Positions 2,900-52,700 of a stretch of DNA of 64,000 nt are shown piece by piece; within the stretch, counting starts at the first letter, position 1, and the number at the start of each line of letters is the position of its first letter. The stretch is from Sphaerolaimus hirsutus (lineage: Eukaryota; Nematoda; Chromadorea; Monhysterida; Sphaerolaimidae). Both the position numbers and the translations under genes were made by a program. The notes under the pieces are model-generated. The model was given only the letters and a program-made list of their open reading frames with translations, was not told the DNA's origin and ran no database searches. Location: positions 2,311,855 through 2,375,854 of the forward strand of contig OZ038455.1 of assembly GCA_964036195.1 (NCBI GenBank), written 5' to 3'.

Positions 2900-3563
2900 T
2901 AGGGTTGGCCGATGTTTTTTTTTAAACGTTTTTTTAAAAAAAACAACGTTTTTTTAAAAAAAAAAACATGACGTCCGAAATGTTTTTTTTTTAAAAAAAA
3001 CATCGGCCGAAATTTTTAGTACTAAGCACTAGGTATTTTGCAAAATTTTTGCGCGCAAGCGCGCAATTTCACACACAAATTGACATTGGTGGTTGTTTTC
3101 ATTGGTTTTGTTGCATTTTTAGTATCAAAACATCCATTTCTATGTGCTACCATGGGTGAATAAGCCGACATATGTTGCTGTAATATATAATATTGAGGTA
3201 ATGTGCTTCCATGTATTTCCACAGTGTGTAACTTCACTCCCAAAGTAACAACCTCCTTTTATAACCTTGTTTGATCACCATTCCGTGCCAAACTTTACCT
3301 GATGTCACAAACATTCGACTATAAGGCGATATACGAACGATATGTCGACGAAAAATGGATATTTTTGACACAAATCACCACTTATAATGCTATCCCATGG
3401 CTCCACAGCCATTATATGGTCATATTTAACATCACAGAGTATTGCCAGTGTCTGATATACCTATATATGTTGACACTAGGTCATATCTGGGAGCTTTTAA
3501 AAAAAAACGTTTTTTTTAAAAAAAAAACATCGAGTTAAAAAAAACGTTTTTTTTCCAACCCTA
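2900..3563. mobile_element. hAT-like array element TAGGGTTGG, copy 1
   Basis: Starts TAGGGTTGGCCGATG and ends CCAACCCTA, flanked by ATCATGAT (2892-2899 and 3564-3571). Both ends are arrays of AAACGTTTTTTTT-type units around a unique centre that includes GCGCGCAAGCGCGC. Confidence 0.88.
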
Positions 3564-20900: not shown

Positions 20901-23900
20901 GGTTTAAGCTGAAATTTCAACTGAACTCGTTTATCAGATTTGAACGCATTTGAGTTTACAAAAATGATGTGCCCGTCAAGTACAGCTGACAGAAATTGAA
21001 TACAACGCGTGTCAGTACACTCAAATGCGTTCTAAGCTGATGTATGCGTTTTCCTTCATATAAATTTTATTTAAAACTAGTTTGTGTGGACACATTTCTG
21101 AATCCTGTAAAGTGTCACGTGACAAAAAGTGTCAAAGGTCAAGTTTCACGTGTCACTTGACATGGCACATGCATCATCCAGCCCCAAGCGCACAATATAC
21201 CACGCATTCCACCCCTTCTCAGGCACCAAGTGGGCGGGGCTTCAGCGCGGGGGGGTCGGCCGGGGGTGGAGCCGGGGGTGCCCCTGAGCGCGGGGGCGCA
21301 GCAGCGCAACCAGTCGCAGCAGGACGAGTACGACTACGAGACGCTCAACGACTACTTGCTGCGGTCCATGAAACGGACGCACCCCCCGCCCCCGCACAGG
21401 GGACACAAGCACAATGGTACGGGCATGGGGGCACTTTTGAGAGGGGGCTTTTTGGCATTGTGCCAGCTGGAAATCAATCCTAATGCTGATTTCGTATTTC
21501 AAAATGTAGGTCAAATGGTTGACTTGTTGATAGCGTAGGGGTTGATACCGTAGGGGTTGATACCGTAGGGTAGAACTGGATGGCTGGAATGAGGTGTACG
21601 TTAAATGCAGTTGTCTGAAGTTAAAATGACTCATTCCGGTCATCTCATACTCTTTCAAGGCTCAATACTGAACTGTGCGTGCACAGAAACGTGTCTGCAT
21701 CTCTAGTCAAGTCCACGCGTGCAATTGCCAGATGTCCACGGGGACTCGTGCGCAGCGGCGGGCCCGTCGGATGTCCAGCGGGCAGAGTGCAGCTCGGCGT
21801 GCAGCGGCAGCGAGTCTAGCAGCGCGGGCGACCAGTGCGCCAGCGGCGGCACCGGCGACCCCCTGGACGAGCAGCTGGAGCCCGGCGACGACGGCCACGT
21901 GCAGCTCGACTTGGAGCACGCCTCCGTTGGCTCCGCCCACTTGCAGACCAATGGCAACGGGTTGGTTGAGGGGTGACTTCTGCATGTGGAGAATGGCAAA
22001 AACCTATTTAGAGGTGGAAAGTAAAAGTTTCGAAGCGTGGTGAAGTGACGAGTGAAATGAGAAGTAAAAAAGTTTACCATTCTCAATGTGTATCAGGGGT
22101 CTCGAATGGGGGGTTGGGGGGGGGGGTTACCCCTCCCCCCAAATCGCTCAGCTATTTACCTATCTGGAGCGATTTTTGAGCAACTATACACTAATTTTCG
22201 CTGAAAATCGCTGGGCTCATTTTTAACCTTATAGATTTTGGACGATCAAAAGTATAAAGTTACCAATAATCCCTAGTTAATGCCCATATCTCAACTAGTT
22301 TGAGTTTCTTGCATTGTCCGAAATATGTAAGTAAATCAATATTGTTTCAATAGCTTTGAATAGGTTTCTTTTTAAGGAATAAGTTTTTTTTGCAGCAGCT
22401 TTCAGAAACAGATCGTGTTGGCAAAAATTTACTGTTTGCAATTGTACGATCTGTGACCAATCCCGCACCATGTAAAATGACGTTTTACTTTGTCAAGTGT
22501 CATGTAAAGTATCGTTTATAATATCCCTTTGCTCATCTTACATTGTACATGGCATTGGAAATATTTCTGACATGACAATGGCTATTCAATTCTTACATTT
22601 CAGACCATGTTTGAAATTAAAGTTATGTTTAAGTGCAGGCAGGGGTCTCGAATGGGGTGGTTCCCCCCCCCCCAACCGCCCAGCTAAACCCCTGTTTACC
22701 TCGATCCGGATGGTTGTGAATTTTTTAAAAACGTTTTGTTCACGCCCCCCTGTAAAGTTTTCGGGAAAATTGACCCGACTTGAAAAATAGCCCAAAGAGT
22801 TGTCTACATGATGTGCGGATCGCCCCCCAATATAACGCCGCGTGGCCCGCTTACACGGCCCACGCGACGTTATATTGGGGGGCGATCCGCACATCATGTA
22901 GACAACTCTTTGGGCTATTTTTTGAGTCGGATTTATTTTCCCAAAAACTTTACAGGGGGGCGTGAACGAAACATTTTTAAAAAATTCACAACCATCTGGA
23001 TCGAGGTAAACAGGGGTTTATCTATCTATCCCGGAGGCCGCTCAGCTATCTATCCCGAATGCAAAATGTTGGGCTACTACCTCCTTAAACCCCCCCCCCC
23101 CAATGGCTCAGCTATCTGGAGCGCTTTTTAAGAAACTATACCCCATTTTTTGCTCAAAATCGCTTTTTTCATAACTTTTTTATATACATTTTCACCTCCA
23201 AAATACTGTTGTTCATATTTACTAGGGTTCAAACGATATGACTTTTCGATATCGATATTCGATATTCGATATTGAAAAATGGTCGATATCCGATATTCGA
23301 TACGATACGATATATCGTTTGAACCCTAATATTTACCCATTTTCAGCTATTTTTAGTACTATATGCTCTTGTATACCCATTTTGAGCTATTTTACACCTA
23401 CTTTTAGCGATTTTTCTCCCTTTTCTTCTACACCCTGAAATAGCCTATTTATCGAACCACCACAACCCCCCCCCCCAAACCCACCCAAACCCCCAAACTT
23501 TTTCCAGCTATCTAAATATCTATACCGACGGCCGCTCAGCTATATATCCAACCACTCGGAGGGTCAAAATTCAAGATACCCCTGATGTGTATCATGTACA
23601 TTTTAATTTTTTCTTGTTCATTGTTAAATCTGACAATTTTTCAACAAACTTGCAAAATACCAAATCACCAAAATTGCTTCCACCCCCATTCCACCCCCCC
23701 CCCACACGCAGCTACATGTACAGCGGGGAGTCGGGGCGGGGGGACGCAGCCAAGGGGTCCGACCTGTGCACCGGTTCCAGACCCCCGCAGCCGTGCATGG
23801 GCGTCAGCGCCAGCGCCCTCACCCAGAGCACTCGTGAGTACACTTTGGGCTATTTTGGCAACCGCGAATTGAGTCAACTGAGTGCTTTGGGGGTTTCGGC

Positions 23901-26258: not shown

Positions 26259-26401
26259 TAGTGATGGAAAAGCGCCATGGCGCTACTGGCGCTTGGCGCC
26301 ATTTTGCTCTGGCGCCATTGGCGCTTGGCGCCGGGTTGTGGAAAAGCGCCATGGTTTTTTTGGCGCTTGGTGCCAACGTACTGGCGCTTTTTCCATCACT
26401 A
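26259..26401. mobile_element. hAT-like array element TAGTGATGG (GGCGCC), copy 1
   Basis: TAGTGATGGAAAAGCGCC to CCATCACTA, flanked by TTCCTGAT at 26251-26258 and 26402-26409. The interior is GGCGCTTGGCGCC-type units. Confidence 0.9.
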
Positions 26402-28492: not shown

Positions 28493-28710
28493 CTAATTCA
28501 CATTTTCCATATCTTTGTGTTCTTCAATATACTTGAGCAGTTTATCCACAATCTGTGTGCTCCCCTGCCTCTCAGCAATTGCCAGCAGTGCCTCAGCACT
28601 GTTCCCTTTCTGCATCAGATCAACTCCAGGTGCTGCCAGCAGCGAGTCAAAGGCATCTTTGTTACCCATCCAGGCAGCCCACATGAGTGCAGTGTATCCA
28701 TTGTCAGCCA
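28493..28710 (-). CDS. ankyrin exon A4: terminal exon with stop
   Basis: Reads VADNGYTALMWAAWMGNKDA, LLAAPGVDLMQKGNSAEALL, GSTQIVDKLLKYIEEH, ending MENVN and TAG at 28493-28495. Acceptor ATGCAG, phase 1, joins A3 in frame. Confidence 0.85.
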
Positions 28711-31700
28711 CTGCATTAGTCAATGTTCACAATGATAGGTTTATAAATATCTTAACCTACTATATATATCCTCGAATAAAATCCCCTGGAGTTATTTTTG
28801 CATCAGAGATTTTTGAGGGTGGAGTTATTTTCCCTCAGAATTACCCCCTGGGGTTTATATTTCAGAGTGAAAATTTTGAGCGAAAAACGTGAAAAATGCA
28901 ACAATAACCACCATTTATAAGTTTTTACAGCCTTATATAAGGATGTAGATGGTATAAACGATGTTCTAACGTAACACAGTAAGTGTTTTGAACGTCTGTT
29001 ATGCATTTCCCGGACCACAAATTCATAGTGCCCATTTTGAGGGGGGGTATTTCGATGGGGGGGGGGGGGTATTTCTAGGAAATACGGTATCTGTTGTCGC
29101 TGCTGTACGCTATTATTGCTTTGCATTTGTCATTTCACTTGGTGCACTGCATTGATTGTTTCTTAACCCGACCCATCATATTTTCCACCTATCACGGAGG
29201 GGGGAGTTACTCAAGTGTGGGGAGGAGTTTTTCAAGGTGGGGTCTTATTCGAGGATGTACAGTATCCTAAATGGTTGATGACACAAAAGACACAACAGCA
29301 CCTGCATTGACATTGTCTGCTGGCAGCAACTTGAGCAGTTTGTCCACAATCATTGCATTACCGCCAACTGCAGCAGCCATCAGCAGTGTTTCACCACTCT
29401 TGTCTCTGTGTGTCAGATCTGCACCAGGTGCTGACAGCAGTGATTCAAATACATCTTTGTGACCTTGATCTGCTGCCCACAGCAATGCAGTGAATCCATT
29501 GTCATCCACTGTGTAGTACATTTTCATATTATATGTATATATTTATACCTATATATATGTATTGTAATAGACCATATTTCCTCGAAATGCCCCCTCCGCC
29601 CAAAAAAAGTTGAGTGTATAAAAAAATATAGACAACATGGGTAAATACCAAAAGCAGTGGTTTGTGATCTGGGGGCACTCCCCCCAGACCCTGTAAAGTG
29701 CCAAATGTAATGCAAAGTGTAAAAGAAATTGTAAAATGACATGTGTCATGTAAAAGACCCTGTAAAGCGTCATGTGTAGTGATGGAAAAAGCGCCAGACT
29801 TTTGGCGCCAAGCGCCAAAAGCGCCATGGCGCTTTTCCGACCCCCAGCGCCAAGCGCCAATGGCGCCAGAGCAAAATAGCGCCAAGCGCCAAGAGCGCCA
29901 TGGCGCTTTTCTGGACCTCAGCGCCAAGCGCAAATGGCGCCAGAGAGTGATGGCGCCAAGCGCCAATAGCGCCAGCGCCAAAAACTTTTCTTCTGCAATT
30001 CGTTTGTAGAATAATCAATTCGTAATTGTGACATACCGCTGATGTCGCAATAGTCAATTTAACTTTTGCCATTAAAGTTCAATCAACCACTACATCATTA
30101 AAATCCCAAGGGATACACCTATTTTTTAGCCAAACAGCTGTACGATGATAGGTCCTAAATATTATATCCCATTTAGTCATGTTTATTACCAGTTATGAGT
30201 ATGTAAATACTTATTCTTTACGTGATACTTTACGAAAATTCCTGGCGAAATAATAAACCCCTTGCTCGAAATACCTCCATCAAAATTTGCACTCGGAAAA
30301 AATAAACCCCTGGTGGTATATCGAGGAAATACGGTATATTCATTTGCCCCAAATATTACCTAATCAATATTTAATTAATATAAATGTCCCATTACACCCT
30401 TATATTTATCAATATTTATTCAGTTAATCGCAAAATTTATCAACTGGCCTGTCCATTTTCACTGAATCATAAGAATTTTATAATGATGGTTGGCGCTTTT
30501 TTGGCGCTATTTAAAATGCCGGCGCCAGGCGCCAATAGCGCCACCAGAAAATGGCGCCAAGCGCCAAAAGCGCAATGGCGCTTTCTCAGATGACAGCGCC
30601 AATGGCGCCAGAGCGTTTTAGCGCCAAGCGCCAAAAGCGCCATGGCGCTTTTTGTTTTGGCGCTAGCGCCAGGCGCCAGCGCCATGGCGCTTTTCCATCA
30701 CTAGTCATGTGACTTGCAAAAATATAAAAATCACTTAAAAAATAATAATAAAGAACGATACGGGACTCGGCAGCCGGCCAAATTTTCGAAATCGTTGTGT
30801 GGACGGGTTGAAAATAGCCAAAATAGATTTAAAAAATAGGCATATAACCATGTATTTAGACGAAAATACCGATAGAGCGGCCTCTGCGATAGATACCTAG
30901 ATAGTTGGCCCATTCCGGGGGGGGGGGTAGCCCTCTGCCCCCACTCATTAGCGACCCTTCCCGGTTGCTTACTTGCATTCCGCAGCCATTAGCAGGGACG
31001 GTTCACTCGTTTGTACAAAACGCAACTAGAAGGTGGACGCGGGTCAAAACTAAATACGTGCACCGATCCGAATTTTATCCGAAAGTAGAAATGGACTCTG
31101 ACTTGGATAATGGCGATGCCGAGCCGGGGATACACCTATTTTCAATTTATTTTAGCTTTTTTCGACCCTTTTAAAGTCAGCAGACGTATCGGGGGTGCAC
31201 TGATACGCACATCTGCCAGATACCGTATTACCTCGAAATACCCCCAGGGGGTTTATTATTTCGCCAGCAAAATTTGAGGGGGGGATAATTCGAGGGGGGG
31301 GGTTATTCGAGGGGGGGTCTATTATTCCGCCAGAAATTTTCGGAAATTCCCCATACGCAGACGTAGAAAAGTCGAACAATCACATAGATTTATATGTGTT
31401 TATAGGCATATATTACTATATACCGTATTACCTCGAAATACCCCCATGGGGGTTTATTATTTCGCCAGCAAAATTTGAGGGGGGGTTAATTCGAGGGGGG
31501 GGTTTATTCGAGGGGGGGTTTTATTATTTCGTCAGAAATTTTCGTGAAATTCATAGTAAAGAATACGCTTTTTCATACACAAAACGGGGAAAAACGTGAG
31601 AAAATAGGTCATATCTGGGCTATAGGTGTACATCTGTACACAAATGAGCGTATAAGTGTAACTGCAATGCAAATTAGTAGTAATAAATACATCATGTACA

Positions 31701-34700
31701 TTGCATACATGATGTTCATCATTCAGGAGGGGGGGTATTTCGAGGGGGGGGGGTTTATTATTTCCCCAGCCCATTTTGAGGGGGGGTTAATTCGAGGGGG
31801 GGGTTAATTCAAGGGGGGGATAATTCGAGGTAATACGGTATACACAAAAACCCTTCCCTAACGTCACTTAATCATCAGTTTTACCGTGTGTTCTGCATAG
31901 TACAGATCACAAACTGCGGTATTTGTCATGTACGTTCATGTTACACTCAATTTTAGAGGGGGGTATTTCGAGGGGGGTTTATTATTTCCTCAGCCGAAAT
32001 TTAGGGGGGGTATTTCGAGGGGGGGTTAATTCAAGGGGGGGATAATTCGAGGTAATACGGTACCACATTTGCCCGTTTTTTCACTCGACACTTTTTAAAG
32101 TGATTTTCAGATATGAGTGAAGTGAAAAACGCTGCGCAATGACATTAGTGAACTTTTTACACTTCACTCATATCTGAAAATCACTTGAAAATGTGTCAAG
32201 TGAAAAACAGTGAAAAACGGCTATTTTTCACTGTTTTTTTCACTTGACACTTTTTCAAGTGATTTTCAGATATGAGTGAAGTGAACAAAGTTCGCTAATA
32301 TCATTGCGCAACTTTTTCTCACTTTACTCATATCTGAAAATCACTTGAAAAAGTGTCAAGTGAAAAGAACGGGCAAATGTGTGTATCGGGCAGATGTGCG
32401 TATCAGGCCTGCCCCGACGTATCGCCCTACAAACATTTGTGTCAATCTCTCCAGTGGAGAGTGAATGACAGCATTAGGCAGGCCAAGCCCGAACGGTACC
32501 GGATACCTGGCAAGACTTATGGCGAGGGAGATCGTGCTGGCGCTGTGGAACAAAGGGAAGCCGACTCTGAACTGGTGGGTGCAAAACGATGGTGGCAGAG
32601 AAAAAAGGGTTAACAAAGACACCTATTCCACTCGACATGACATGACACTTTACAGAACTACAACTTTTTGCATTAAGTGTAGGCACGACTTTGAAGTGCC
32701 CCGCCTTTGCTCTTTTATGGCGAAAAGGCAGGGTGCTGAGAAGTCAATCCAGAAAGGACATGACATGACACTCAACAAAACCACAATCTTTGGTAGTAAA
32801 TGTGGGGAGGTAGGAGCTGGAATGACATCGCATGACAATGATTCAATTACCGAAAAACACAAGAACCAAGAGAGCACGACTCCAGGAAAAGCTCCAAGCA
32901 GCCGCACGCTGAGCGAGGACGCAGTGATTCGCGGAGATCGAAAGATCGCAAGACTTCTGGCAAAGATCGGGATACTCGGCGCAAAAGATCTCATCATGTC
33001 TCCGGTGGAGACAGTGGCCGCCGTAGTGGCCGGTCAGAAACCAAAAATTCGGAGGGCGGCGCTGGAAACTCGTGGAGCTACCGTGAGCGGTGAGATGGGG
33101 GGATGTCACACGCACGCCTTTTCACACCAATTTATGCAATTTGGGGTTGATCGACGCGAAACACTTTTTGCGGTTCTACTATGCATATTTACGGTGTTTA
33201 GGAGCATGATACCGAAGTCAAAGCGAATATGCGCAAATGTTACTCTCGATATGGCCCATAAGAATCCTGCTCTTGCCTTTTGGTGGCAAATGGATGGGTT
33301 TCTTACGGGCTATATTGGGGGAGTTGTAGGCAGGTTGGGGATAGCGCAAATACGCAACTATTTCATGCACGGAACGCAGCTACGGAGAAAATCGCGGCGG
33401 GTTCGGGCAGGCACGTGGTCGAGGTGGGTACGGACGCGGAGAGTTCACATGATATACATTACGATTCCAATACGACAAATCTCGGTGCTAGCTCTTCTAG
33501 CAGGAACTGGTACGTGTATATGGGTGTCCTCAACATTGATAGGCCTTGAAACAAATGACCAAGGGGCAAAAGTGATTAGGCTCAATCTAGGATATCTTGT
33601 ACGCGGTAACACAAATGCGCTATCCCTATGCAGATGCGGATTTGGAGTGTGTGGGAGGCTGATGGAAGTAGGCAGAAAATGGGCAGTTGCAGTAAGGCGG
33701 CAGGTTTCTAGAGTTCGTGATATCTTTTTGCATGCGGGAAACTGTCTCACAATGCTATGGGGGCTGAGAACATGGCTATGTCGCAAAAAACGCTTGGGTA
33801 AAAACCCACACAAAAAAAAACAACACAAGCGCAAAACTGAGACACACCAATGCACCACACATTACATGACAATCACAACAGACCAGAGTGGAAGCACCAG
33901 CAATCCACAAGCTGGAGGTGCAAATCACGAACGTGGAAAGGGAACGCAAAAACAGCATGAAATTGGTAGAATCATGGGGATACCAAAAAACAAAAACCTG
34001 AACCAAAAATAGGGGGAACAAAAGGGACAAATAGGGATGCAATGAAGCGGGCAGTGCGATGGGGGAACAGAATGACAATATTCTTTCAAAATGTGAGATC
34101 TGCACGGAAAAAGCATGAGCAAATTGCAGACATGTTAGAAGATGGACGCTACGATGTGGCCATCCTCGGGGAAGCAAATGTCAGAACGCGGTTGGAAACT
34201 GTGGAATCACCCGACTACAACCTAACCTTGATAAGAAAGCCACAATCGAACAACGGTGGCTTCCTAGTGTATATAAAGAAATCAGTTTCTTCATATATGC
34301 AGGGTCCGATTACAACAGGGGACACGGAAAGCAATACGGTGGCAATGACAATTTCCACTCTGGCAGGGAAACTTGACATTGTTGCTGTTTACCTTCTGGA
34401 TCAAGGGCAGATACAAAGAGATAGAGAACTAAGGGATGTCAACTCGCAAATCTTGGACACTATCGGAAACAGGATTATATGCAATCGCAGTTCGGGGAGG
34501 GATACAATCGTAATCGGTGATTTCAACGGAGCCTTAGGACAAGAGCACTTTGGGGCGGGTCGATGTACTGCGGCACCAAACCGTAACGGGAGGCTTCTTA
34601 AAGGCTGGATTTCTGCAATGGACATGGCAGTTTTGGACGACAAAACAGGGCAGTGGTGGACTTTTGAATCGGGACACACAAAGACGAGAATTGACCATTG

Positions 34701-37700
34701 CTTAATGGACAATCAAGCGGACATGGCGACGGCGACGATCAAAAACTTAGGACATGGAAACAGTCCCTTAGCGTCTGATCACAGTGGATTGGTAGTGGAA
34801 ATATCCGTGGAGTCAGGGGGAGTAGGGGAGGAAAAGACAAGGCCTACATCTAAGGGATGGTCTATTAGAGGAAAGGATAAATCCACAAAATTTCTGCAAG
34901 AGATCGAGAACGTCATTGATCCAAGTGATCCCCCATCCAGCTATGACGCCCTGCTCGAATTTTTACAGCAATGGGCGAAGTGCTGGTTTGGGGTGAAACA
35001 GTGGAAAAGGAAAGAAACAAAGTATGGCAAGAAGATACGAGAGATCAAACGAATGCTCAAGCAAAAGAGACGAGCACTGCATGAAGGTAGACTTGGTATA
35101 TTAGAATACCGAGAATACCGGAAAAGGGGACTTGGAGACATCAGACAACAAGAGATAGCCACACATGACAACAAACTGAAGCAAATAATGGAAAATGAGC
35201 TGCAGTACGGAATCGAGAACACTAATCTGTACAAAATGGCTCAGAAACTACGAGAGGCTGATGTTAAGTACCCAATGCTCAAAATCAGAAATAGACCATG
35301 CAAAGATGACACGGAACTGAAACACGTTCTAAACGAATTCTGGAAGAGAATACAAGCACCAAATCCAGCAAAAAAGAATTTCAGAACCGACAGTGGAATG
35401 ACAGGAATTATTGACAAAGCCATGGCTGACAAATTGGACATGGAAATTTCGACAACAGAAACAAGAGAAGCATGCAGGCGACTTAAGCTGGGGAAATCGG
35501 CTGGCACAACAGGGATATCGCACGAGATGCTAAGGATGCCGGGATAGAACCTAGTTGTCATGCTGAAAAACCAAATGAACCAGTGATTTAGTGGACAGGA
35601 AAAAATACCAAGACGGGCACAAACATGCAAACTGGTCATGCTACACAAAAAGGGCTCAAAATCAGACGTTAATTACTACAGAACAGTTGGGATACAATGC
35701 AACATCCTAAAGCTGTACTGTTCAATCCTTTATAAACGACTGATGGACGGATTTGAATGCAACAATGCCTTTGGTGATATGCAAGCAGAATTCAGGGCGA
35801 ACAGAAGAACAACAGACAACCATGTGATATTGCAGGGGTGCTTGGCGGATACAAACCGGCTGTCAGCGTGTTTCATGGATGCAGTGAAAGCTTTTGACAG
35901 GGTAGAACGGGGACGCCTATGGGTGAAACTAAGAGACTATGGATATGGCAAAACTCTGTGCAAGGCAATAGAAAGCACCTACATGGATCAAAAATGCTAT
36001 CTGCAGTATAACGAAGTCTGCACGGATGAACTTGACTACCCACTAGGGGTGCGACAGGGATGCTGCCTAGGTCCAACACTATATGTGCTGTATATGGCGC
36101 ACCTAAGAACAAAACTGGAAAGAAGCGGATTGGGGGCCAAGCTAGGAAATGAGAGAATACCGGCTGGGTTCTTTGTAGATGATGTGGTGCTCATGGCAAA
36201 TAACGACGTGGATCTGCAGAAGATAATGGACATTTTCACAGAGTGGAGTCATGAATGGGGGATCGGGATCAGTGAACAAAAGAGCATGATCCTGCACGTC
36301 AGAAGGAGAGCGGATGCAAACAGAGAGTGGTACCTGGGGATCGGGGCAGATGGAAAGAAGCAGATCATAAGAGAGTGTGACAAGACTAAGTATCTAGGCA
36401 TCCTTCTGTGCAGCGGTCATGACCCATTTCAAAAACAAAAAAGCGGATACATGGATAAGCTAACAAAAGGGAAATTCCTCACAAAAGAGGTAACAAAACA
36501 CAGTCGAAGACAAATGTGGGTGCTTAATATGCTTTGGGGGGCATATGTGGCCATTACAGTGATGTATGGCGTTGAGATAACAGGACTCTCAAAATCTGCA
36601 CTAAAACAAATGACGGCGTCACAGATGGGACTCTATCGACAGGTGGGAAATGTAGGGAAACACATCTCAAACAAACTGCTGGGAATAGACTGGAATATTA
36701 GGACAATGGAATGCTGGTACAAATACAGCATTATTAGATACAATGACTACCTGAAATCTGAAAAAGCCTTGAAAACGACCAAACTAGCAGCAAAAATCTG
36801 GGGGGAACAAAAAGGGTCAGCGGGGGCAACACGCAAAAATTCACCGGAGGGGTGGGCAAAAATGGCAAAATCAGAAATGAACCTAGGAAACACGCAAATG
36901 CTAGGGAAAGACAAAATCCTAACTGCCTGTAAACACTATGGATGGGAGATTAGACTGAAACCACAAACACAAACAACGCGAAGTATACAAAAAGAAAACC
37001 AAGTAATAAAAGAAATTACACCTCTATTGCCAGAGACCCTACAGGTGTCGGAGCATAGATGGTTTGCCGGGAGACATGGCTGGTTACCAAATATACAGCA
37101 AATACGCTTTTGGCAAAACAATATAAGACAATGGAATAACTGTCCGTTATGTGAATCGCTGGGGTGGTCATTTTGGATGACAATGTCCCATTACATGGAA
37201 CAATGTCAGCATCCGATGGTGACACTCTTGCGCACAGCGTGGGCTAGGTCGATTAGTGAAGACTGTTGTAGCCGACGGTGTGGCAAAGATATTGCTGCGC
37301 CCGAGGCGGAGGCAGCATTAGTGACGTGACAAATTAGCCATAGCATTGTGAGACAGATTCCATGCACGGTCTTTGATGCCGCAGTATGCCATAAAATGCG
37401 TATTGATGCGTCGCAACACCTGGGTAATCTGGCCAGAGTACTGGAAAACTGGGGGGAACGCAGCGACGGTTCATTGTTCGTGAGCGGGAACCCTGGTCAG
37501 CCAGTACGCTGACTCTGGATAATTAGAAGAACAATGTATACCTACACTGTACAAAACTGTATTAATTTGCAAAGGTTTTTACAATTCTGAGGTTTTTAGT
37601 GTGCGACACAACAACGCGCAATGTTGATAATGCTTTTCTGGTAATGATGGGAGTGATGGAAAGTGAAAAAGGTGATAAATGTGACACTTGGAAAGGTCTG

Positions 37701-40700
37701 ATGAGTAGCAAACTGAAGTAAGAGACGTCGAGCAATTGAGAAATATTTCACTTAACAATTCAATCCTGGGAATCAAGCATTTTGCAAACCAGTTCTCAAT
37801 AATGTCAAACACACCAAATAGTTGGAAAAACTCTGGAATAGTAAGAGGAAAACTCTGCATGAAAATTGGACTTTTGTGACTAATGAGACTTTCTAATGAC
37901 GATTATGATTTTCACTTAACATCAGACTATAGCTTGTTGATTTTTCTTTCCTATTTTTGTTATTTTTGCTCAAACGCTGTCAATTGTTTTAAGCGTGGAC
38001 AAACCCGGGTTGTGGGGTGCTAGAGTGTTTTGTTTTTCGGTGTTTTTGGCGATGTTGTCTGCCGCTCACTCCATAGTAAGGTAGTAAGTAGATTAGGTGT
38101 TTTCTCTATATTTTCCCCCGCCAACGATGTTTACAATGCGCACGAAAACTCACCTAGTAGGACCGCAACTAGGAGTAGTCGATGGGTATGTATTGTGTAT
38201 TTTACTTGCATTTGGCTTTTGTGGTCTGAGACAAGTAAACCTATTTGATTGATTTTGATTAGGTATTGTGACACAATATTTTTACGATTGTAATAGATCG
38301 GGTCACGTATGAAAACTTGGCCCTTATCCCAGTTTCCAGTTGCGTTGTATACAAATGAGAGTTAAAACTGAAAGTTAGCTAAAAATCGTTAAAATTTGCT
38401 TCGCTTTGCCCATTTCCACCTTCATAATCGCTATTTTTGTTTATATACATGGTTATATAGCTATTGTGAGCCTATTTTTTCATATTAATAGCGGATTTCG
38501 AAATTTTGGCTGTCTGCCAAGTTCTTTTCTGTTGGAACGGAGCCAACGAATGAAAAATGAAATAAAAACAAAAACGGTAGTTTGAATGGTAAACCGGTAG
38601 TTTGAACGGTCAAATTCTTTACGAGCAACGTTGAAAATGTAGATACCGTATTTCCTCGAAATACCCCTCCCCCTCGAAATACCCCCCCACCCTCGTTTGA
38701 CCCCCCCCCCCTCTCGAGACCACTATGAAACAATCACCCCCCCCCCCCCTCGAAATACCCCCCCCCAGATTTAGTGTAAAGAGAACGTACATAACAAATA
38801 CTGCAGTTTGTGTTCTGCGTAGTGCAGAACACACGTTAAAAACAATGTCGGAATCACGTTAGAACAGTGTTTATACCATCTACGTACTAATATTAGTCTA
38901 CATAACCTTATAAATGGCGGTTTTTGTTGTATTTTTCGACGTCTGCGTACGTTTCAGACGACAATTTCGTACTGGGATTTGAAAAAATTTCTTGTGAAAT
39001 AATAACCCCCCCTCGAAATACCCCCCCCCCTCGTTTAACCCCCCCTTCCCTCTCGGGACCACTATGAAACAATCACGCCCCGGGGGGTATTTCGAGGAAA
39101 TACGGTGACTAGGGCGTGACACGCACGGACGCAGCGAAACGTCCATTTTTCTTTTAATATGATTTTCTTTTTCAATTTCTAGCGTCCGCGTGGGACACAA
39201 GTTTCGTTGTTCGCTCTATTCACGAGCGAATTCTAACTCTCCGATTTTATAGGGTGAAATGTCCGCCGACTTTACAGAACGATTTTGAAATTTTGGCCGG
39301 CTGCCAAGTCCCGTATCGTTCTTTTATTCTATTTTTTAATGCGATTTTTATTTTTTTGCAGGACACATGATATTTTACAGGGCCTTTTACCGGGTATTTT
39401 ACACTTTTCATGACATTTGACACTTTACAGGGTCTGGGAGTGGCACCTGGGCAATGCAGTACAGACGTTAAAAACAATGGCTGTGTTTTGGGTTTTTTTT
39501 CATCTACATACTAATGTGAGTCTAAATAATCTTATACATGGCGGTTTTTGTTGCATTTTTTACATCTGCGTATGTTACAAACAACAAATTAGTACTGGGA
39601 GTTCAAGAAAAACTACTGAAATTTCCACTGAAAAAAATTTACTCCCCGGGGGGTAATTCGAAGAAATACGGTATATAAAAATAAATATCATCTATGATAC
39701 AAAATGATCGAATGTATTAAAAAACAGGGAAATACGGTATCTGTTGTCGCTGCTGTACGCTATTATTGCTTTGCATTTGTCATTGCACTTGGTGCACTGC
39801 ATTGATTGTTTCTTAACCTGACCCATCATATTTTCCACCTATCACGGAGGGGGGAGTTACTCAAGTGTGGGGAGGAGTTTTTCAAGGTGGGGTCTTATTC
39901 GAGGATGTACAGTATCCTAAATGGTTGATGACACAAAAGACACAACAGCACCTGCATTGACATTGTCTGCTGGCAGCAACTTGAGCAGTTTGTCCACAAT
40001 CATTGCATTACCGCCTATTGCAGCAGCCATCAGCGTTGTCCTACCATCGTAGTCCCTGCGAATAGGGTGTCAACAAGTTTTTTATGGCAGACAGAAACGG
40101 AAATTTTGCACTTGCAAGAAAAAGGAATCAGAAATGGGATTTTTTGCACTTGCTGGAAACTGGAAAAATGAAAGACTGGGAAATGGAACAATTGCAGAAA
40201 TTTTGCTGTAAACTGAAAAAAATTGCTGAAATTTTGGCAGATACTGGAAAAAATTTGCCTGCAGAAAGCGGAAAATGAAACATGGAAAACGGAAATTTGA
40301 AACACTACCTGTGAATCACATCAGCACCAGGCGCAGACAGCAGTGAGTCAAATGCAGTTCCATTACCTTCCTCTGCAGCAATCATCAATGCAGTGTTTAC
40401 ATCATGCTCTGTGTTAGTCATTGTTTAATATATACCATATTTGCATGAATAATCCCCCTGGGGGATTATTATTTCGTCAGACATTTTTGAGGGGGGAACT
40501 ATTCGAGGGGGGGAATTATTCAAGGGGGGGGGGGAATTGTTATTCCGTCAAAACTTTCAAGCATGTTTCCATCAACTCATTTCACAAAATATGCCTTATA
40601 AACACAATAACGTGCCGTTTTTGTTAAAATTAGGTATAACAAATTAATCAAATCTTTAAAGGGGGGATTATTCGATGGGGGAACTATTATTTCTCACTCG

Positions 40701-43700
40701 TCTTACAGGGCGGGATTATTCGAGGGGGGAATGATTCAAGGGGAAACTATTCAAGCAAATATGGTAGATATACGCAGCGGACATCACACTTTGTATGAAA
40801 ACATACCACAACCCATCTGAATAGTGAACCAAAATTATACAGTTTTTCCATCATAATATTTCGTTTTTACTATGGAAAAATTTATTAAGAAATTTATCAC
40901 AACATTTTATTCATTTAATTATGGTAGGTGTGCTGTCCGCCGAGTATACCTAGGTATATCGGTTTTTCATTGTCTACCTAATCATTGATGATGCAAAGTG
41001 CAAAGGTCACCTGCGTCGGCAGTGCGCACATGCAGCTAACGATGGCAAAAAAGATTCAAAAATTCGAAAACATTTTCGAATTTTGTCATAATTTTCGAAT
41101 TTTTATTTCACCCCTGGAACAAAACACATAAAAATCGATTTTTTTTTCAAAAAATTCAAAAATTCGGAAATTCGAAAATATTTTTCAGAGAATTCCAGGA
41201 CACAACACATTAAACATGATAAATCGATCGATAATTTATATGCGCTGTGTCTGAAAAAGCGTAAAATAATGGAAAAAATGTCAAAAAAACGTTGAAATGG
41301 CGGAAACCATTTAGGAATGCACTCAGCAACCTGAATTATTGCAATCATGGTTTGCAGTATTATCACTTATTTCCACTTTTTTATGTATGATTGTTTGTTT
41401 AGTTAGCCCATTGCTGGGCATCAATCGCGGTTTGAAAAACATGAAATGAAATGAAATGGTGCACTATACTTCCGCTGAAACAGATTCCACTCCATCAAAA
41501 AATAGATTGCGGGTTATTGTTGAAAGTTGTTGAACAGATCCATGTCTGGCAATTCAACAGGGCCATTTCCAGACACTTTAAAATGCCCTGTAAAATGTCA
41601 TGCAAAGTGTCAAAGTCATGGAAGCTCTGAAAATTGAACATATTCATGCTAAATTCAGCTAAACTAAGGTAAATTACAGTGAAAGTAAGGTTAAAAAGCT
41701 ATCCAAAAACATTAAAACTATCAAAATACTGCTTTAAAGCTTCAAATTCAATGTTTTTTTCAAAAAAATTCGAAAATTGTTCAAAAAGATTCGAAAATTC
41801 AAAAATTAAATTCAAAATTTGAAAATTATTTTGAGGAAAAATTGGAAAATTCAAAAATTCATTTTAGAAAAAACACTTAAAAATTTAAATACTTTTTTCC
41901 GGGGGCTTTGCCATCGTTACATGCAGCACACAAAACACGCACAGCACGCAGCACAGCAAACTCCTCAATGCGATGCTCCAGTGGCGTGGCAGCATTTTGG
42001 GCACAGTGTGTAGGGTGAGCCAACGAGTTCTGCATGCAGATAAGGATTCGAGTAGATAAGGTACTTGGATTTGAGTAGTTAAAATAATGATAGTTTTGGA
42101 TATTGTTAACATAAACAATAATAAATTTTTGATGTTTCAAGTAGGTTTCTTCTTTCCTTCCTTCACACCTTCCTGCTCAAATCTGCTAGGCAATTTTTGA
42201 CTTCACTTCTGACTAGGGTGTCAACAAAATTTTTTTACGGAAAACGGAAATGGAAACAGAAAATTTTTTGCACTTGCCGGAAAAAGGAACGGAAAACGGA
42301 AAAAAATGTCGGCGGCCGTAAAACGGAACAAATTTGCCTGCGGAAAACGGAAGTTTGACACCCTACTTCTGAATAACTCTTCAAATGCTTTATGAATGGA
42401 TTCGAAATCAATTGACCAAGTTTCCTCGAATTGACACCCTTCAAAACACAGCCAGGTTTGAGCGAGCTGGGGAAATAATAATTATCCTCGAAATACACCC
42501 ACCCCAATTCAATGTGAAGTAAATACCGTATTTCCTCGAAATACCCCCCGGGGTGATTGTTTCATAGTGGTCTCGAGAGGGGGGGGGGTATTTCGAGGGG
42601 GGGTTATTATTTCACAAGAAATTTTTTGAAATCCCAGTACGAAATTGTTGTCTGAAATGTACGCAGACGTCAAAAAATGCAACAAAAACCGCCATTTATA
42701 AGGTTCTGTAGACTAATATTAGTATGTAGATGGTATAAACACTGACACCAACATTGTTTTAACGCGTGTTCTGCATTACACAGAGCACAAACTACAGTTA
42801 TTGTCATGTACACCCCCGTTCACCATGGTTGGCACCATTGAGATATTTTCAGAAAACAATTCAAAACTTTGCTATACAGAATTGTATTTGGCCAAGTGGG
42901 GTATCCCCTTGTAGGGCAATTCAAGCCCTACAAGTGCATATAGGGCACAACTGATTATCTCTTCTCTAGGGCATTTCATGGGCCAGATAAATTCTTTTAT
43001 TCATTTAAAGCTGATCACCATGGTTGGCACCCTAGTGTTTTTTGGTCTTAAATCCTGATTTTCAAGGCTGCATTCTGCAACAAATGGCAGATTTGAAGAA
43101 GTATTACACTTAGCCAGCTCTGAGTGTCAAGGCCCAGTTTGAAATGCATTTTGATGATTGTTTTCCTTCTATTTTCTGGAACATGGCAGCAGATGATAAA
43201 AATAGCTATTTTAGCCATTTCCATTGCTTTTCAGTTGCTGAAAATGCCTTGGCTGATGAATATGTCATCCACATGCTGTGGTATACCTTTGTCATGGATG
43301 CATATGTTTTGTAAATGTACTGGAGATGCCCAAGTACTGATGTTGATTTCATCAATGGCTGTTTCTCCAGACATATGGCCCTCATGTTCAAGCAGTTTGT
43401 AAAGGCAAAATCGCTGACTGTAAGAGGAATATTCAAGCTTTAAAATGAGTGCTTACATGCATTAATCTGTTCACACAAATATAAGATTGGCCATCTCAAA
43501 AATCATGTTATCACAAAAATTGTAAATTCAGTAGTAAATAGGCAAGATAATGGCAGTAACAATTTCGCTGTAGCATATCTCACATATGTGTGAACAGATT
43601 TATGCATGAAAGTACTCATTTTAAAGCTTGAACAATCCTCTTACAGTCAGATATGTTGCCTTTACAAACTGCTTGAACATGAGGGCCATATGTCTGGAGA

Positions 43701-46700
43701 AACAGCCATTGATGAAATCAACATCAGTACTTGGGCATCTCCAGTACATTTACAAAACATATGCATCCATGACAAAGGTATACCACAGCATGTGGATGAC
43801 ATATTCATCAGCCAAGGCATTTTCAGCGACTGAAAAGCAATGGAAATGGCTAAAATATCTATTTTTATCATCTGCCGCCATGTTCCAGAAAATAGAATGA
43901 AAACAGTCATCAAAATGCATTTCAAGCTGGGCCTTGACACTCAGAGCTGGCTTGGTGCCGAACTTCTTCAAATCTGGCATTTGTTGCAGAATGCAGCCTT
44001 GGAAATCAGGATTTAAGACCAAAAAACACTAGGGTGCCAACCATGGTGATCAGCTTTAAATGAATAAAAGAATTTGTCTGGCCCATGAAATGCCCTAGAG
44101 AAGAGATAATCAGATATGCACTTGTAGGGCTTGAATTGCCCTACAAGGGGATACCCCACTTGGCCAAATACAATCCTGTATAGTGAAGTTATGAATTGTT
44201 TTCTGAAAATATCTCAGTGGTGCCAACCATGGTGAACGGGGGTGTACGTTCCCTTTACACTCAATTTGGGGGGGAGTATTTCGAGGGGGGGGGGTGATTG
44301 TTTCATAGTGGTCCCGAGAGGGGGGCTAGAACGAGGGGGGGGGGGTATTTAGAGGAACTACGGTATATATGACAAAATTGCAGTTGGTGATCCACTTGAT
44401 ACAGAATACACGTTAAAAATAAAAATTAAGTTAAAAATTAATTGTATTATGACACATATTACAGTGTATATTAATATATATCATTGAATTTTGCTCCCTC
44501 TCTGTATCTGGAATTTCAGAACAATTCTGTTGAAATCATACCCCTCAAACTTTGTACTCACTGGAAAAATTTTGAAAATCCTGGGGTGTTTCAAGGAAAT
44601 ACGATGTATGTACATATTATAAAGTGATTGAATTGGAAAACTGTCATTTTCAATTGTGATTTGTGTGTAAAAATACCTACTACTAAAATTCATTTTTAGT
44701 GATATAATCATTATTTTATCTGCATTATTATGTCCACTGCAAAGTTGTGAAAACGTATTTTCGTTTACTCGATAAATACTGATACTCGAGTACTGCGTAA
44801 ATACGTTTACGTTTCCTCCCGAAAAAATACCAGTACTCACTTACTCGCGTACTTTTTGAAAGTACGCGAGTACAGAAAACGTATTCCAAGGGGGAGTTTA
44901 TTTTTTTGTCAGCTAGCTCAGACAAGGGTGTGGAGGTATTTCGACCGTGGGGGTCAGTTCAAGGAAATATGGTACTTTTGCACACATTGAAAACTGTTGC
45001 AAACAGAAATGGTGCAAGTGCTAATATTTTCATCACACTTTTCCACAGCTATACTCCGGTTACTTTACACCTTGCACGCGTGGTTCCCGCTGGACGTGTG
45101 CCAACGATGGTTAACGCGTGCGAGTTTCATAAAAAGATGACAAAATTGATTGTTGTTATAATGTGTTTCATTAACATATTCACATCGATGAATTTTTTAA
45201 ATCTTTTTACGGAAATCGCATGATTCAATAATCACTGGCACACTTCCAACACGAGACATAAATCAGTGCGAGGGCAGAGTATCATGTACGCCGAGTATAC
45301 TTATTGACAAGACTTACCTACGCCTAAAGTGTACCTGCCATAAAATCAATTTAAAATAGAATACAGGTATAAATGGTATATGGTATTTAAAATTTTAAAA
45401 ACATGATAAGAAAAAACATTCCTCATTTGTACGCGACTCCGCATTTTTCTTTATTTTAATAGTTTTATTTTGGTGAAAGTGCATATGTACATAAGTATCC
45501 AGGTATTTGGAAGAAAAAGTGATTTTAATCATATTTAAATGTCAGTGCAGCGGTTGGAAATTGCAGTATCTTCAACAGCAGTATTTTCAAGGTGTAAGAG
45601 TTCACATCACAGAAGTGCGAATTCTCCAGCCCTATTTCCCAAACCTATCTATGTTTCTTACTTAAAATTTAAAAATTTGTATTGTTGATCAATGCACCTT
45701 TGTAATTACTTTGTGGTTCTTATTAGTGATTAGGTAGTTAGCTAAATAAATACTTCTAGTTACATACAACAAGTTTTAATTGGAAAAAGAAACTATTTAT
45801 GTATGTTACCCAAAAGAAAAATCCACCAAAGGGAAGCAGTAAAATTTGCAGTGAGAAGTAACAGTTGCAAGTTGTTAGACTTTTAAGTCAAGTAACTGAA
45901 TGGTTTTGAGCCATTTTAGCTTTGGGGGTCTGGCTATGGTCAAAGTTTTTGTGTGATATCACATATATTTCTACTAATTGGAATCCAGTAGCTAAACCAA
46001 TCCAAAATTCAAATGACTGCTGTTTTTCGGTGGTCAGTTAGGTTTTATAATATTCCAATGACAATATCACTGAGCATATTGTCAGTGGTTACATCAGTGG
46101 ATCAGATGTCACAAACATTAATGAAACCATTCGTTACATGCAATACATAGGCGGTGTAAGCGCTTGTGCGCTTGTGAAAGTCACAAGCAAAATTTTCGGT
46201 GTCACAAGCAGAAATACCTATGTTACCTAGTAAAAAGTGTACAAGGTCAAATTTTTGGCAATGTGATTGTGAATGTCACAAGCACAAATTGGGACCTTGC
46301 GCCGCCTATGATGCAACAGCACCATTCATTACATGCCCAATGTGTGCAAATAGTCCAAAATCATTGCGATTGTGTAAACTGGAACATGAATCAGGATAAG
46401 CATTCCAAAAATGGGTGATTTTCAAAAAATATATAATTAAATATAATTTCAGAAAATCTCTCAAAAATAAAATATAATTAAATCCCTCTGAAAAAAACGC
46501 TGAGAAAATATAAATGAGTGATTTAATTATATTTTTTCTCATAAATAAAATATAATTAGAGCTCTCTGGAAAAATCTGGAGAAAATATAATTAAATAATA
46601 TATTTTGTTATATGTAACTTTATTTTTAAAATATAAATCTCTTTTTTATATGTAACCTCTATCAGAATCCACAGCGTGCGATAGCATGTTCAGCAACCAT

Positions 46701-49700
46701 TTTTACTAGGGTGGCGGAAAATGTTTTTATGACTGAGACTGGTCACTATGAGGGCGTGATCAGGTGCTGTTTCTACCACCCACCACTACCAGATGACACT
46801 GTCGACAATCTGGTCAACATGGGGAGAAACTTGGAACATAAATTGATATGGGAAAATATTTATTTTGGAAAAAGTCATAGTTCCATGCATCCTGGTCGCC
46901 ACCTAATTTTCAGTCGCAGTCTCCACCTAAGCCCAAAGATAAATAAATTGGAATGTGCAGTCAGTTGACCAGAAAGTCACAACACTGCGCCGACAACTTC
47001 AAAAGTGTCCGCATGCTGTCTCATGACCTTCTCAGAGAGTTATGGAATGACCCCTCTCACCTTGTGACACATGGAATGTTGCTAACATAAAAATGATAAT
47101 TAGTTACTGTATTTGCTTGAATAGTTCCCCCTTGAATAATTCCCCCCTCAAATAATCCCCCCTGTTAGACAGGTGAGGAAAAAATAATTCACCCCTTGAA
47201 TAATCCCCCCTACATATGGACTAAAAACGGAATGTAGGTAAATTCATGCATGTACACATTGTACACAATGAATATGCGCTGACGCTGATGCATTTGAATA
47301 TTAATTTAAGGCATTTGATAAATGTGTTGTGTGACATTTGAACAAAAATGTCATGTTGTCTTGTTAATAAGGCATTTGCAAAATGAATTTATAGAAACAT
47401 GCTTGAAAACATTGACAAAATAATAATTCCCCCCTTTAAATATTTTCCCCCCTCGAATAATCCCCCCTCAAAAAAGTCTGACAAAATAATAATCCCCCAG
47501 GGGGATTATTCAAGCAAATACAGTAATCTTAATTAAAAGATGGTACATTGGGAAAATTGAATTAATGAAATGGAAACATTACAGAGCACTACAACTGCTA
47601 TGAACATGGAAAACTTGGTCTGCCAGTGTAGAGGGGGGAAGATCTTGTTGCGCAGTGCTCTGTCAGGGTGTTGCACAGCCCGATTGGGATCTGCGCCTGC
47701 CGCACATGCCCCATAGACCACAATAGTCGAAGTGATGTCTGTGGGGGGGTATTCGGATTACTAGTACACAATGTTAACTATTAGTTTATGTGTCGTGAAT
47801 TACTATTGCATTTTATGTCTAAAAATTTGTGGGGTGGGTTTTTTTCTCTTGTAAAAAAATGCCTTACTTCCACTGCTTGATTGTTCTGGCAGCAGAACTT
47901 CCCGAAAAATGACATCACCCTCTGAAATCTCAGAATTCACTGGATTTTCACTTTACACCCATTTTACTATTCAAATTTTATCTCGTGTTTTCCAAAGTTG
48001 CTCAAACATATTTGTTTTCTCAAAAAAATATATATACTCAAGTTTACAGAGTTTACTGAGTAGATATGTTCACATTTGCCTGAAAAAGTACCTGTACTCA
48101 CTTTCACATATACTTCACGAAACTACTCAAGTACAGAATATGTATTTCAGACTGACTTTTATGTAAGCTTTTCAAGAGATAAAAGGAAAAAATAGCCAAT
48201 TATGGTATATATATATAAGCACATGTAATGCCAAAGATAGGGGGAAAACGCATGGATTGTTGAAGATTTGAAGGTGAAAATGGGCAAAAAGTATGAAAAT
48301 TGTAGCAAAATTTCTCAATAAGATGACTTCAGAGAGATTTTTTTATATTTTCTTCCACAGAAATAAAATATATAATTAAATCTCTCTGAAAAATTTCGGA
48401 TAAAATATAAATAAAATTAAATGGATATTTAATTATATTTTCTGAGATTTTTAAAATAACAATCTCCCAGAGATTTTTAGAACGCTAGATGTGATGCCCA
48501 GGATTGATTTGCATGTTGTGTTTTTATTTTTTTATTTTTGTTATACACCCACGATGTGGAACAATGACACTGGTATGCAGAGTTGTTAAAAGGTACGTAC
48601 GTTTACTCGAAAAATACGCGTACGCGAGTACGCGGTAAATACATTTACATATACTTTTCAAAAAAATACCGTACGCACTTGTACGCGTACACTTTCAAAG
48701 CGTACGCGTACAGAAAATGTATTTATGAAAATTCAATGTGGGACATATTTATAAAGTAACTACACCGCTATGTATTCACAGAAGTGGTTCCATTGAATAT
48801 TTGAGATATGTGGGGGTAGTGCCTTTAAAAACTTCAAAATTCGTAACCAAATCGAAATGGTAGTGGAGACAATGGATGTGGTAAACGAGTCGGGAGAATG
48901 ATCATTTTTATCTCCTAGAAAAAAGAGACCTTTAAAAACTATATAATCTGTCATTTGCTTATAGAAAAACATACGTTGTGCTGTACACGTATGAAAAAGT
49001 GCCCACTTTTACACATTCTATGTAGAAAAGAAGTCGTTTCTACACCCACAAAAAAGTACCCACATTTACGCGTACGTACGAGTAAAAAAAAAGTATTTTA
49101 CATTTTCTATACTTTGTCGTGAGTAAAAAAAAATACTTTACGTTTACATATACTTTTAAAAAAGTTCAGTAATTCTAACAACTCTGCTGGTATGATAAAT
49201 AAATTAAATGAATCACAAACAAATTCACATAAACACAAAGCAAGTATCAGATCAGATGTGCTCAAATGTTGGATTGTCTGGCTGAAATTGGAGGGTGGAG
49301 GGATTCATGCAGATTTTTGGACACCACACAATTAAGGTCATAGGCTGCGCATAGTCCCAATTTGCGCTTGTGACATTCACATTAGCCAAAATTTCACCTT
49401 GTGACACCTTTTTATCGGAGCCCTTATGTGATATTGGCAGCCGGCCAAAAATTTTGAAATCACTGTAAATATAAAAAAATTCTCTAAAAATAGGTATATA
49501 ACTACCTATGTATATAGATGAAAATGGGTATTACCGTTATTCCTCGAAATACCCCGGGGGTGATTGTTTCATAGTGCTCCTGAGAGGGGGGGGGGGTCAA
49601 ACGAGGGGGTATTTCGAGGGGAGGGGTTATTATTTTTTTGAAATTTTAGTACAAAATCGTTGTTTGTGATGTGCGCTGGGGTAGAAAAATGCATCAATAA

Positions 49701-52700
49701 CTGACATGTAAAGACTCCTGTAGACTAATATTAGTCTATAGATGGTATAAACACTGTTCTAACGTGATTCCAACATTGTTTTAACGTGTGTTCTGCAGTA
49801 CGCAGAACACAAACTGCAGTATTTGTCATGTACGTTCCCTTTACACTCAATCTGGGGGGGTATTTCGAGGGGGGGGGTGATTGTTTCATAGTGGTCTCGA
49901 GAGGGGGGGGGGTCAAACGAGGGGGGTATTTCGAGGGGGTAGGGGTATTTCGAGGGGGGGGGGTATTTCGGGGAAATACGGTATAAAGGTGAAACTTGGC
50001 GAAATGGAGCAAATTTTAGCGATTTTGAGCTAATTTTGAGCTTCACCCTCATTTGTTCAATACATGCTTGTGAATGTCACATTCTGACAGTCAAATTTCT
50101 GTTTGTGACACCAAAAATTCCGCTTGTGACATTCACAAGCGTACAAGCACTTACGCCGCCTATGATAAAGGTAATCGTTGCCACTTTGTTCATGACAAAT
50201 GTCAGGGGTCAAGTTCAAGTTTACTTTTTAGCCTTCATATGACCCTGTGCCGGTGCTCATCTAGTCCCGGTTCTCATCTAGTCCCGTCGCTCATGTAGCG
50301 CTACCCGGTGCTAACCAGCACCTCCACAGCCGTCACACACAAAATGTGCATTGAACAATTGGCAATGTGGCAGTGCACAGCAAGGAATGTGTGCCGACGG
50401 TTGGGTTGAAAAAGGTCGCATTAGAATTACGTTACATATGGCTGACCAATGGCTTTTTTTTGCCCAGTAGATTAGTGCTGCATTTGCATTGTAATGGATC
50501 CAGGCTAACGATGGCAAAAAAAAATTGAAAAAATTCGAAAATTCAAAAATTCAAAAATTCAAAAATAGTTTTCGAATTTTTCAGGGAATTCAAGGACATA
50601 CGAGACATTCTTAGGTTCTATGTGCTAAATTGATCGATAATTGATACGCGGTGCATCTGAAAAAAGTATATCGAAACGAAAAAAAACGTCAATGAACGTT
50701 GAAATGGCATCAGTGTCGGATCCATAGCTGGAATTGGGGAAGACATTTTAAGGGGTGGGTCCACCAGACTTTTGTGTCTTCCCATTATGTTGCACGTCAA
50801 CCATATTGTTTTGTTTCCTTTAATCGTCCCCCAGTTAGTGATGGAAAAAGCGCCAGGACTTTGGCGCCAAGCGCCAAAAGCGCCATGGCGCTTTTCCGAA
50901 CCCCAGCGCCAAGCGCCAAGGGCGCCAGAGCTAAATGGCGCCAAGCGCCAAAAGCGCCATGGCGCTTTTCCAAACCGCAGCGCCAAGCGCCAATGGCGCC
51001 ACAGCAAAAAGGCGCCAAGCGCCAAAAGCGCCATGGCGCTTTTTGTATTGGCGATAGCGCCAGGCGCCAGCGCCATGGCGCTTTTCCATCACTACCCCCA
51101 GTCCCAAGATAAGGTGAAACTTTCTGTGAAAGTCTGTCAAAAGGTGTTGATTTTACATGGCGGATTTGGCTAGTTGACTTTGAAGCTTAATAACTCAGCC
51201 GTTTCTTGGCCGATTTGGATCGTTAAATACTTCAAATGATCTGCACAACCTGTAGATTCCATTTTTGAGGATGGATTAGTGATTTATAGATTCATTATGC
51301 CAATTTAACCCAGTATTTCAACATGTAAAATAAATTTTTCTGAACATGCCATCGTATACTTAATAAAAATACTGTACTCAAAAAAGTCCCCCCGGGGGGG
51401 GGGGGGTTGTCAGTGATTTTTGAGGGGACTTATTCGAGAGGGAGTTATCCAAGGATTTATAGTAAATACATATACATAAATCACATAGATACAGGGCCAA
51501 ATTGACATACAATTTTTGCAATTACATAATCAGCAAATGTACAACAGAATGGAATGACACAAAAGTCTGGTGGACCCCCCCCCCCCATAACAGCCACCCC
51601 CAATTCCAGCTATGGGCGGACCTGATCACATTGAGGAATGCGCAGGAATGCACCAAGCACCCATAACTATTTCAACATAACTACTTAACAGCTTAAAGCT
51701 CTTAATTCAATATTTTTTTCTGAAAAATTCGAAAAGTATGTGAAAAAATTCGAAAATTAACCAAAAAAATTCGAAAATTGCCCAAAAAGATTCGAAAATT
51801 CGAAAATTAAATTCAAAATTCGAAAATTAATTTGAGGAAAAATTCGAAAATTCGAAAATTCATTTTGGAAAAAACACTTAAAAATTTAAATACTTTTTTT
51901 CCGATGGTTTGCCATCGTTAATCCAGGCAAAGAAACTGTCTAGATGATTAATTAAGCGGGGTGGCCGGGTGGATCAAACAAGAATAATCACAATCTGGTT
52001 GGCACACCGCACTGAACGAATATGAGCTATCGGCCACACGCACCTTGATGTGCGCTCTTAGCATAAATCGAGGGCAGCATTTTAGGATTGGGGAGGGGGT
52101 CCACCTGGTGGCAATTCCGCAAAATGAGAAGTGAGAAGTGAAATGGCAAAGGCAAAGTGAAAACGCAAAGGCGAAGTGAAACAGCAAGTGAATTGGCAAA
52201 AGCGAAGTAAAAAATAAAAATAAAAAGTAATTTCTCGTCGCTTTCGCCATTTCACTCGCCAATTCACTTCCCAATTCACTTTGCCTTTGCGCTTTGACTT
52301 CGCCTTTGCCATTTCACTTCTCACTTCTCATTTTGCGGAACTGGCACCAGATACGCATTTTGCTCCTGCTGCTACAAAAAATGCATGTGAATAATACCGT
52401 ATTTTCACGAAATATCCCCCCCCCATCGAAATACCCCCGTCTCGAAATCCCCCCCCCTCAAAATGGGCACTATGAACTTATACCCTCCTCGAAATACCCC
52501 CCCCCCAATTTAATGTATAGAGAACGTAGGTAATGCGGTTTGTGCGTGATCCGGGAAACGCAGAACACATGTTAAAAACAATGAATGTGTTATGTTAGAA
52601 CCGGCCATCTACTGTCTACGTACATAAATATATAAGTCCATAGAGTGTTATAAATGGTAATTTTTGTTGCATTTTTGACGTTTGTGTACGTTTCAAACAA

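Follow-up and report, generated by a model that had tools for sequence, protein, structure and literature searches.

A hAT-type transposable element in an ankyrin exon, probably removed by splicing as an intron

The window, meaning the whole 64-kb stretch of DNA analysed here, carries on its minus strand three copies of an ankyrin exon, one of which is split. The split copy consists of a 5′ part of 100 bp, A1 (40309..40408), and a 3′ part of 104 bp, A2 (39952..40055). Exon A3 (29302..29508, 207 bp) is an uninterrupted paralogue, and A4 (28493..28710, 218 bp including the stop codon), a third copy that was absent from the first-pass annotation of this DNA, is a second uninterrupted paralogue and probably the last exon. 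Both A3 and A4 are unbroken at the position that matches the A1/A2 split, and the claim in that annotation that A1 and A2 represent one exon that is continuous in A3 holds, with coordinates correct almost to the base. A1 was delimited from an Ank match in the translation of A1 plus A2 and from the alignment with A3, its borders being placed by CAG/GT and the ankyrin frame (here and below, a slash within a sequence marks a junction). The same frame (VNA/VDDNGFTAL) places the 3′ border of A2 at CAG/GTGCTG, and A3 is defined by its own Ank match and alignment.

The arrangement of these exons looks like the 3′ end of a single minus-strand gene with tandem ankyrin exons. A1A2, A3 and A4 each begin after CAG and in the same phase, with shared phase-1 borders, and the phase-1 joining of A2, A3 and A4 produces NVNA/VDDNGFTAL and NVNA/VADNGYTAL, by which the ankyrin pattern is carried on. 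In the joined protein, residues 8-104 give the best Ank_2 match, which spans the A1/A2 and A2/A3 borders. Its score of 103.8 bits, against 32.5, 38.4 and 29.3 for the separate exons, is about their sum and is not decisive, and the joined score for Ank (PF00023), 88.4, is below the sum of the separate ones (32.4, 42.9 and 29.2). A profile built from the three exons detected no further ankyrin exon of this kind when the window's 2070 reading frames were searched (next best E 0.92); therefore, the gene is incomplete within the window. Alternatively, A1A2 can be read alone, as an 83-aa reading frame that has both an ATG and a stop of its own.

A protein search with exon A3 alone yielded one candidate and no match, and a search with the joined 209-aa product returned generic ankyrin proteins among the best 120 of 220 matches. 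The best two among these 120 are 41% and 46% identical and carry PF13920, a RING family. Between A1A2 and A3 lies a LINE-type element (33970-37329) with endonuclease and reverse-transcriptase reading frames, the latter 22-30% identical to 89 remote protein matches. In addition, a 16-19 bp unit like GGGGGGGATTATTCGAG forms many short arrays, which are scattered over the whole window (for instance, at 31271-31317, 38654-38713 and 40491-40530) and also occur beside the ankyrin exons.

The break between A1 and A2 is occupied, as had been proposed, by a 245-bp element (40063..40307), a hAT-type non-autonomous element with inverted ends TAGGGTGTCAA / TAGTGTTTCAA. Its two sides are marked by copies of a target duplication. 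One of them, CCTGCGAA (40055..40062; TTCGCAGG on the minus strand), provides the acceptor CAG, and the other, CCTGTGAA (40308..40315; TTCACAGG on the minus strand), contributes its last G, which together with the T of the element forms the donor GT. The first-pass annotation had described these features as an 8-bp duplication and ends of one sequence. The duplication is indeed present but imperfect, with 7 of 8 positions identical between CCTGCGAA and CCTGTGAA; similarly, one end of this copy is TAGGGTGTCAAC, as named there, but the other, read inward, is TAGTGTTTCAAA, and the two match at 9 of 11 positions.

The predicted intron comprises the element plus 8 bp (40056..40308, minus strand, 253 nt). 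Read on the minus strand from 40308 to 40056, it appears as CAG/GTAGTG...TTCGCAG/GG, with GT-AG borders by which the frame is preserved. When the 253 nt are removed in silico, the frame and a single copy of the target are restored exactly, and the earlier description of how target and element share the splice sites is borne out in the sequence. The predicted spliced product, ...ADVIHRDYDGRT... (also given as ...SAPGADVIHRDYDGRTTLMAAA...), is stop-free. In the unspliced form, ADVIHR is followed by a stop directly at the junction, because the end of the element is itself TAG. The present donor, CAG/GTAGTG, has a T at position +5, where a TAGGG end would put a G. This position is a G in four donors, placed by hand, of a Roundabout-like gene in the window, and the putative donors of A2 and A3 (GTGCTG) likewise have no G there.

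The element has a free relative 1.9 kb away (42214..42365, 152 bp), as the annotation had also recorded, with inverted ends that match at 11 of 11 positions, a duplication CTTCTGAC/CTTCTGAA identical at 7 of 8 and four AAACGG hexamers. The intron copy and the free copy are 75-89% identical in four pieces, which cover both ends and internal sequence. The pattern of the family is TAGGGTGTCAA...TTGACACCCTA, its TAGGGTGTCAA end being of the Y-A-G type. The window was scanned for Y-A-G ends 80-800 bp apart, with an inverted match of at least 8/11 and flanking 8-mers identical at 7/8 or more. This yielded nine hAT-type elements, all at 9/11 or better. In 20 first-order Markov sequences, the mean was 0.05 (maximum 1) at that level and 0.35 (maximum 2) at 8/11 or better; such a control does not model real repeats, and the scan was devised once the element had been seen.

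The seven other short elements lie at 2900-3563, 8689-9320, 10836-11540, 23223-23328, 26259-26401, 48578-49186 and 50836-51094. Their target duplications are perfect (8/8), and those of both copies of the intron element's family are 7/8, in a scan that required at least 7/8. At 2900-3563 and 10836-11540, two elements with different duplications share 94% identity over 659 bp; hAT-type elements have therefore multiplied here. Those at 26259-26401 and 50836-51094 are 90% identical over 137 bp.

Ac/Ds elements of maize have ends C/TAGGGATGAAA and 8-bp duplications, and AAACGG is described as the hexamer bound by the maize Ac transposase (both in PMC3260210). The four hexamers of the free copy are reached by 2 of 1000 dinucleotide shuffles, and the two of the intron copy by 6 of 1000. 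CGGAAA, present six times in the free copy and three times in the intron copy, is reached by none of 1000 shuffles in either case, and three overlapping motifs, of which it is one, are enriched at least as much as AAACGG. The latter may owe its enrichment to a repeated CGGAAA unit and, as a sign of Ac/Ds kinship, the hexamers are only suggestive. Exact DNA patterns of the element had no match in viral and prokaryotic contig collections, which is little informative for an element of this kind. In general, its assignment as a non-autonomous (MITE-like) hAT element with an Ac/Ds-like look appears well supported by these sequence features, and the nine elements against 0.05 per control sequence, with the hexamers, bear out the hAT-like type first proposed. 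That a hAT element inserted into the ankyrin exon is close to certain.

The best explanation for the locus, to which we give a probability of roughly 0.68 from the sequence in hand, is that this insertion is spliced out as a real intron of a working gene. A short, non-autonomous, Ac/Ds-like hAT element entered the minus-strand ankyrin exon at the 8-bp target TTCACAGG, which was duplicated in the process, as the flanking copies show. Both ends of an intact member of the family read TAGGG inward, and a coding-strand target that ends in AGG would consequently give AG/GTAGGG at the upstream junction and AG/G at the downstream one; for the intron copy, the ancestral TAGGG end is deduced from the free copy. 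Such a target would offer a ready-made GT-AG pair, the removal of which restores the exon to the base, and this arrangement can be read directly at the site. The spliceosome would then cut out the 253 nt and the ankyrin protein would be unchanged. Thus, the insertion would have been tolerated, and it would later have decayed like ordinary intron sequence.

The best sequence argument for survival through splicing lies in the AGG at the end of the target. Among the nine elements, each considered on both strands, a GT-AG pair with exact restoration is found in 1 of 18 cases, namely in the only exonic copy, read on its coding strand. AGG occurs at 5 of the 202 positions of the spliced A1A2 exon and, with all four exon parts taken together (629 bp), 10 times. 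Therefore, survival of spliceable insertions alone would predict the arrangement; without such a filter, its chance is roughly 1 in 40 to 1 in 60.

It could also be that the same hAT element hit a copy of the exon that was no longer needed, a duplicate within the tandem array that had begun to decay. The GT-AG pair would in that case be luck, or would be used weakly or not at all, and transcripts would skip the exon or stop at the TAG of the element. Substitution counts between A1A2 and A3 (pS 0.215, pN 0.203) give a dN/dS of 0.94, near the value of 1 that such decay would favor, and purifying selection on A1A2 leaves no sign in this comparison, in which the bootstrap interval of pN/pS is wide (0.51-1.93). 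Against A3, A1 alone has a dN/dS of 0.78 and A2 alone 1.52; A1A2 against A4 has 0.85. Nevertheless, constraint is hardly more visible between the two uninterrupted exons (A3 against A4, dN/dS 0.67, bootstrap pN/pS 0.47-1.21), and divergence with little sign of constraint is the rule among these tandem ankyrin exons anyway. A dispensable copy would also fit the one-codon gap of A1 relative to A3, its lack of the DxxGxTAL pattern retained in A3 and A4 and the weakness of the present donor. By contrast, it makes the AGG-ended target a coincidence of about 1 in 40 (5/202 positions), and A1A2 has neither frameshift nor stop, although this is weak evidence in so short a sequence. On balance, prior dispensability of the exon is rather unlikely, but it is the most probable of the alternatives.

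Introns often collect transposons, and the element might, for that reason, be nested in an older spliceosomal intron, or an old intron might have been lost from A3 and A4. The predicted intron is nevertheless the element plus exactly 8 bp, with no older intron sequence left over, and the break coincides with a target duplication within coding sequence, the alignment with A3 continuing on either side of it; nesting was rejected on the former ground and loss from A3 and A4 on the latter. A gain rather than a loss is indicated because, besides this exact composition, two paralogous exons have no intron at the site, and an older intron is thus highly improbable. Least probable of all, to the point of being scarcely credible, is that the repeats arose by accident in an unrelated AT-rich sequence, or that the assembly is wrong at this place. 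The imperfect duplication (7/8) and ends (9/11) would be in keeping with such an origin, but the homology to the free copy extends over both ends and internal pieces, and the control scan, at 0.05 elements per sequence, led to the rejection of chance.

In regard to the age of the insertion, the description 'caught in the act' given in the first-pass annotation is too strong. The insertion does not look fresh: its ends match at 9 of 11 positions, its duplication carries a mismatch and A1 is about 27% diverged from A3. A2 and A3, on the other hand, share a tract that is 98.7% identical over 307 bp (39728-40034 against 29078-29384) and includes downstream non-coding sequence. Beyond a sharp edge inside the exon, about 21 bp from the new acceptor, identity drops to about 73%. 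Recent recombination or gene conversion has probably come close to the intron without crossing it. The edge of the tract stops short of the intron and, therefore, the near-identity of A2 and A3 gives no date for it; an estimate of age from the element itself is precluded by there being a single free copy for comparison.

Giroux 1994 reportedly described an sh2 case of Ds acting as an intron, and Huff et al. 2016 are said to have dealt with Introners. Ds1 is also described as an intron in maize Adh1, for example in Adh1-Fm335 (Dennis 1988 and Wessler 1991, as presented in PMC3260210 and PMC5432752). The present element resembles maize Ds/Ds1, as portrayed in PMC3260210, in being short and non-autonomous and in its TAGGG ends, 8-bp duplication and AAACGG hexamers; a further likeness is the role of an intron once the element has inserted into an exon, a role that is predicted here. 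By contrast, Ds1 uses three donors, 12, 22 or 33 bp from the terminus (according to PMC5432752), whereas the donor of the intron copy falls on the junction itself (target G plus element T) and adds no residue. Furthermore, the present case comes from an animal and does not represent a newly arisen mutant allele.

Introner-derived introns were reported in 175 of 3,325 genomes (Gozashti et al. 2022, PMC9860276). As in that account, the present intron resembles a DNA transposon with inverted ends and a target duplication, and its splice sites are split between element and duplication; mRNA length would be unchanged, as in most families there, and an 8-bp duplication appears in the Aureococcus example of Fig. 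2F. That example, however, adds 12 bp to the transcript, whereas nothing is added here, and the same source retained families with four or more similar introns in one genome, while one intronic copy is known here. The word hAT is absent from the main text of that paper. Introner elements of Amoebophrya, as described in PMC7789003, similarly combine inverted repeats close to the ends of the intron with direct repeats that span its borders with the exons, but those introns are non-canonical with direct repeats of 3-5 nt, in contrast to the canonical GT-AG and 8-bp duplication found here. A literature search for hAT intron gain gave no match for the whole-word combination with target site duplication and splice, and none by title among looser matches, which does not make animal hAT introns unpublished. 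The general mechanism has already been published for Ds and Introners, and what is particular to this case is the junction donor, the hAT type and the animal host.

As intron sequence decays, the origin of a new intron can seldom be recognized. Here, the element family, the target duplication, the uninterrupted paralogous exons and the splice sites are all legible in one 64-kb window. They suggest a simple, testable rule, according to which TAGGG-type hAT ends would generate a base-exact intron wherever the coding-strand target ends in AGG. A broader proposal, that the family with TAGGGTGTCAA ends is a hAT-derived introner in an animal, with every AGG-ended exonic insertion becoming an exactly removable intron, is doubtful at present. 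If it were true, the genome should hold many introns made of the element plus 8 bp, with their phase set by the AGG. The window has one intronic copy and one free copy of the family.

Two further features of the window may be mentioned. A large inverted repeat at 42808-44247, with arms of 546 and 134 nt at 95-96% and a centre of 89 nt, is perhaps a foldback element. The Roundabout-like receptor gene, a pointer to an animal genome, is represented on the plus strand, at 12245-15031, by Ig and FN3 exons recognized with Pfam, and the best PDB match of its Ig exon is Roundabout homolog 2.
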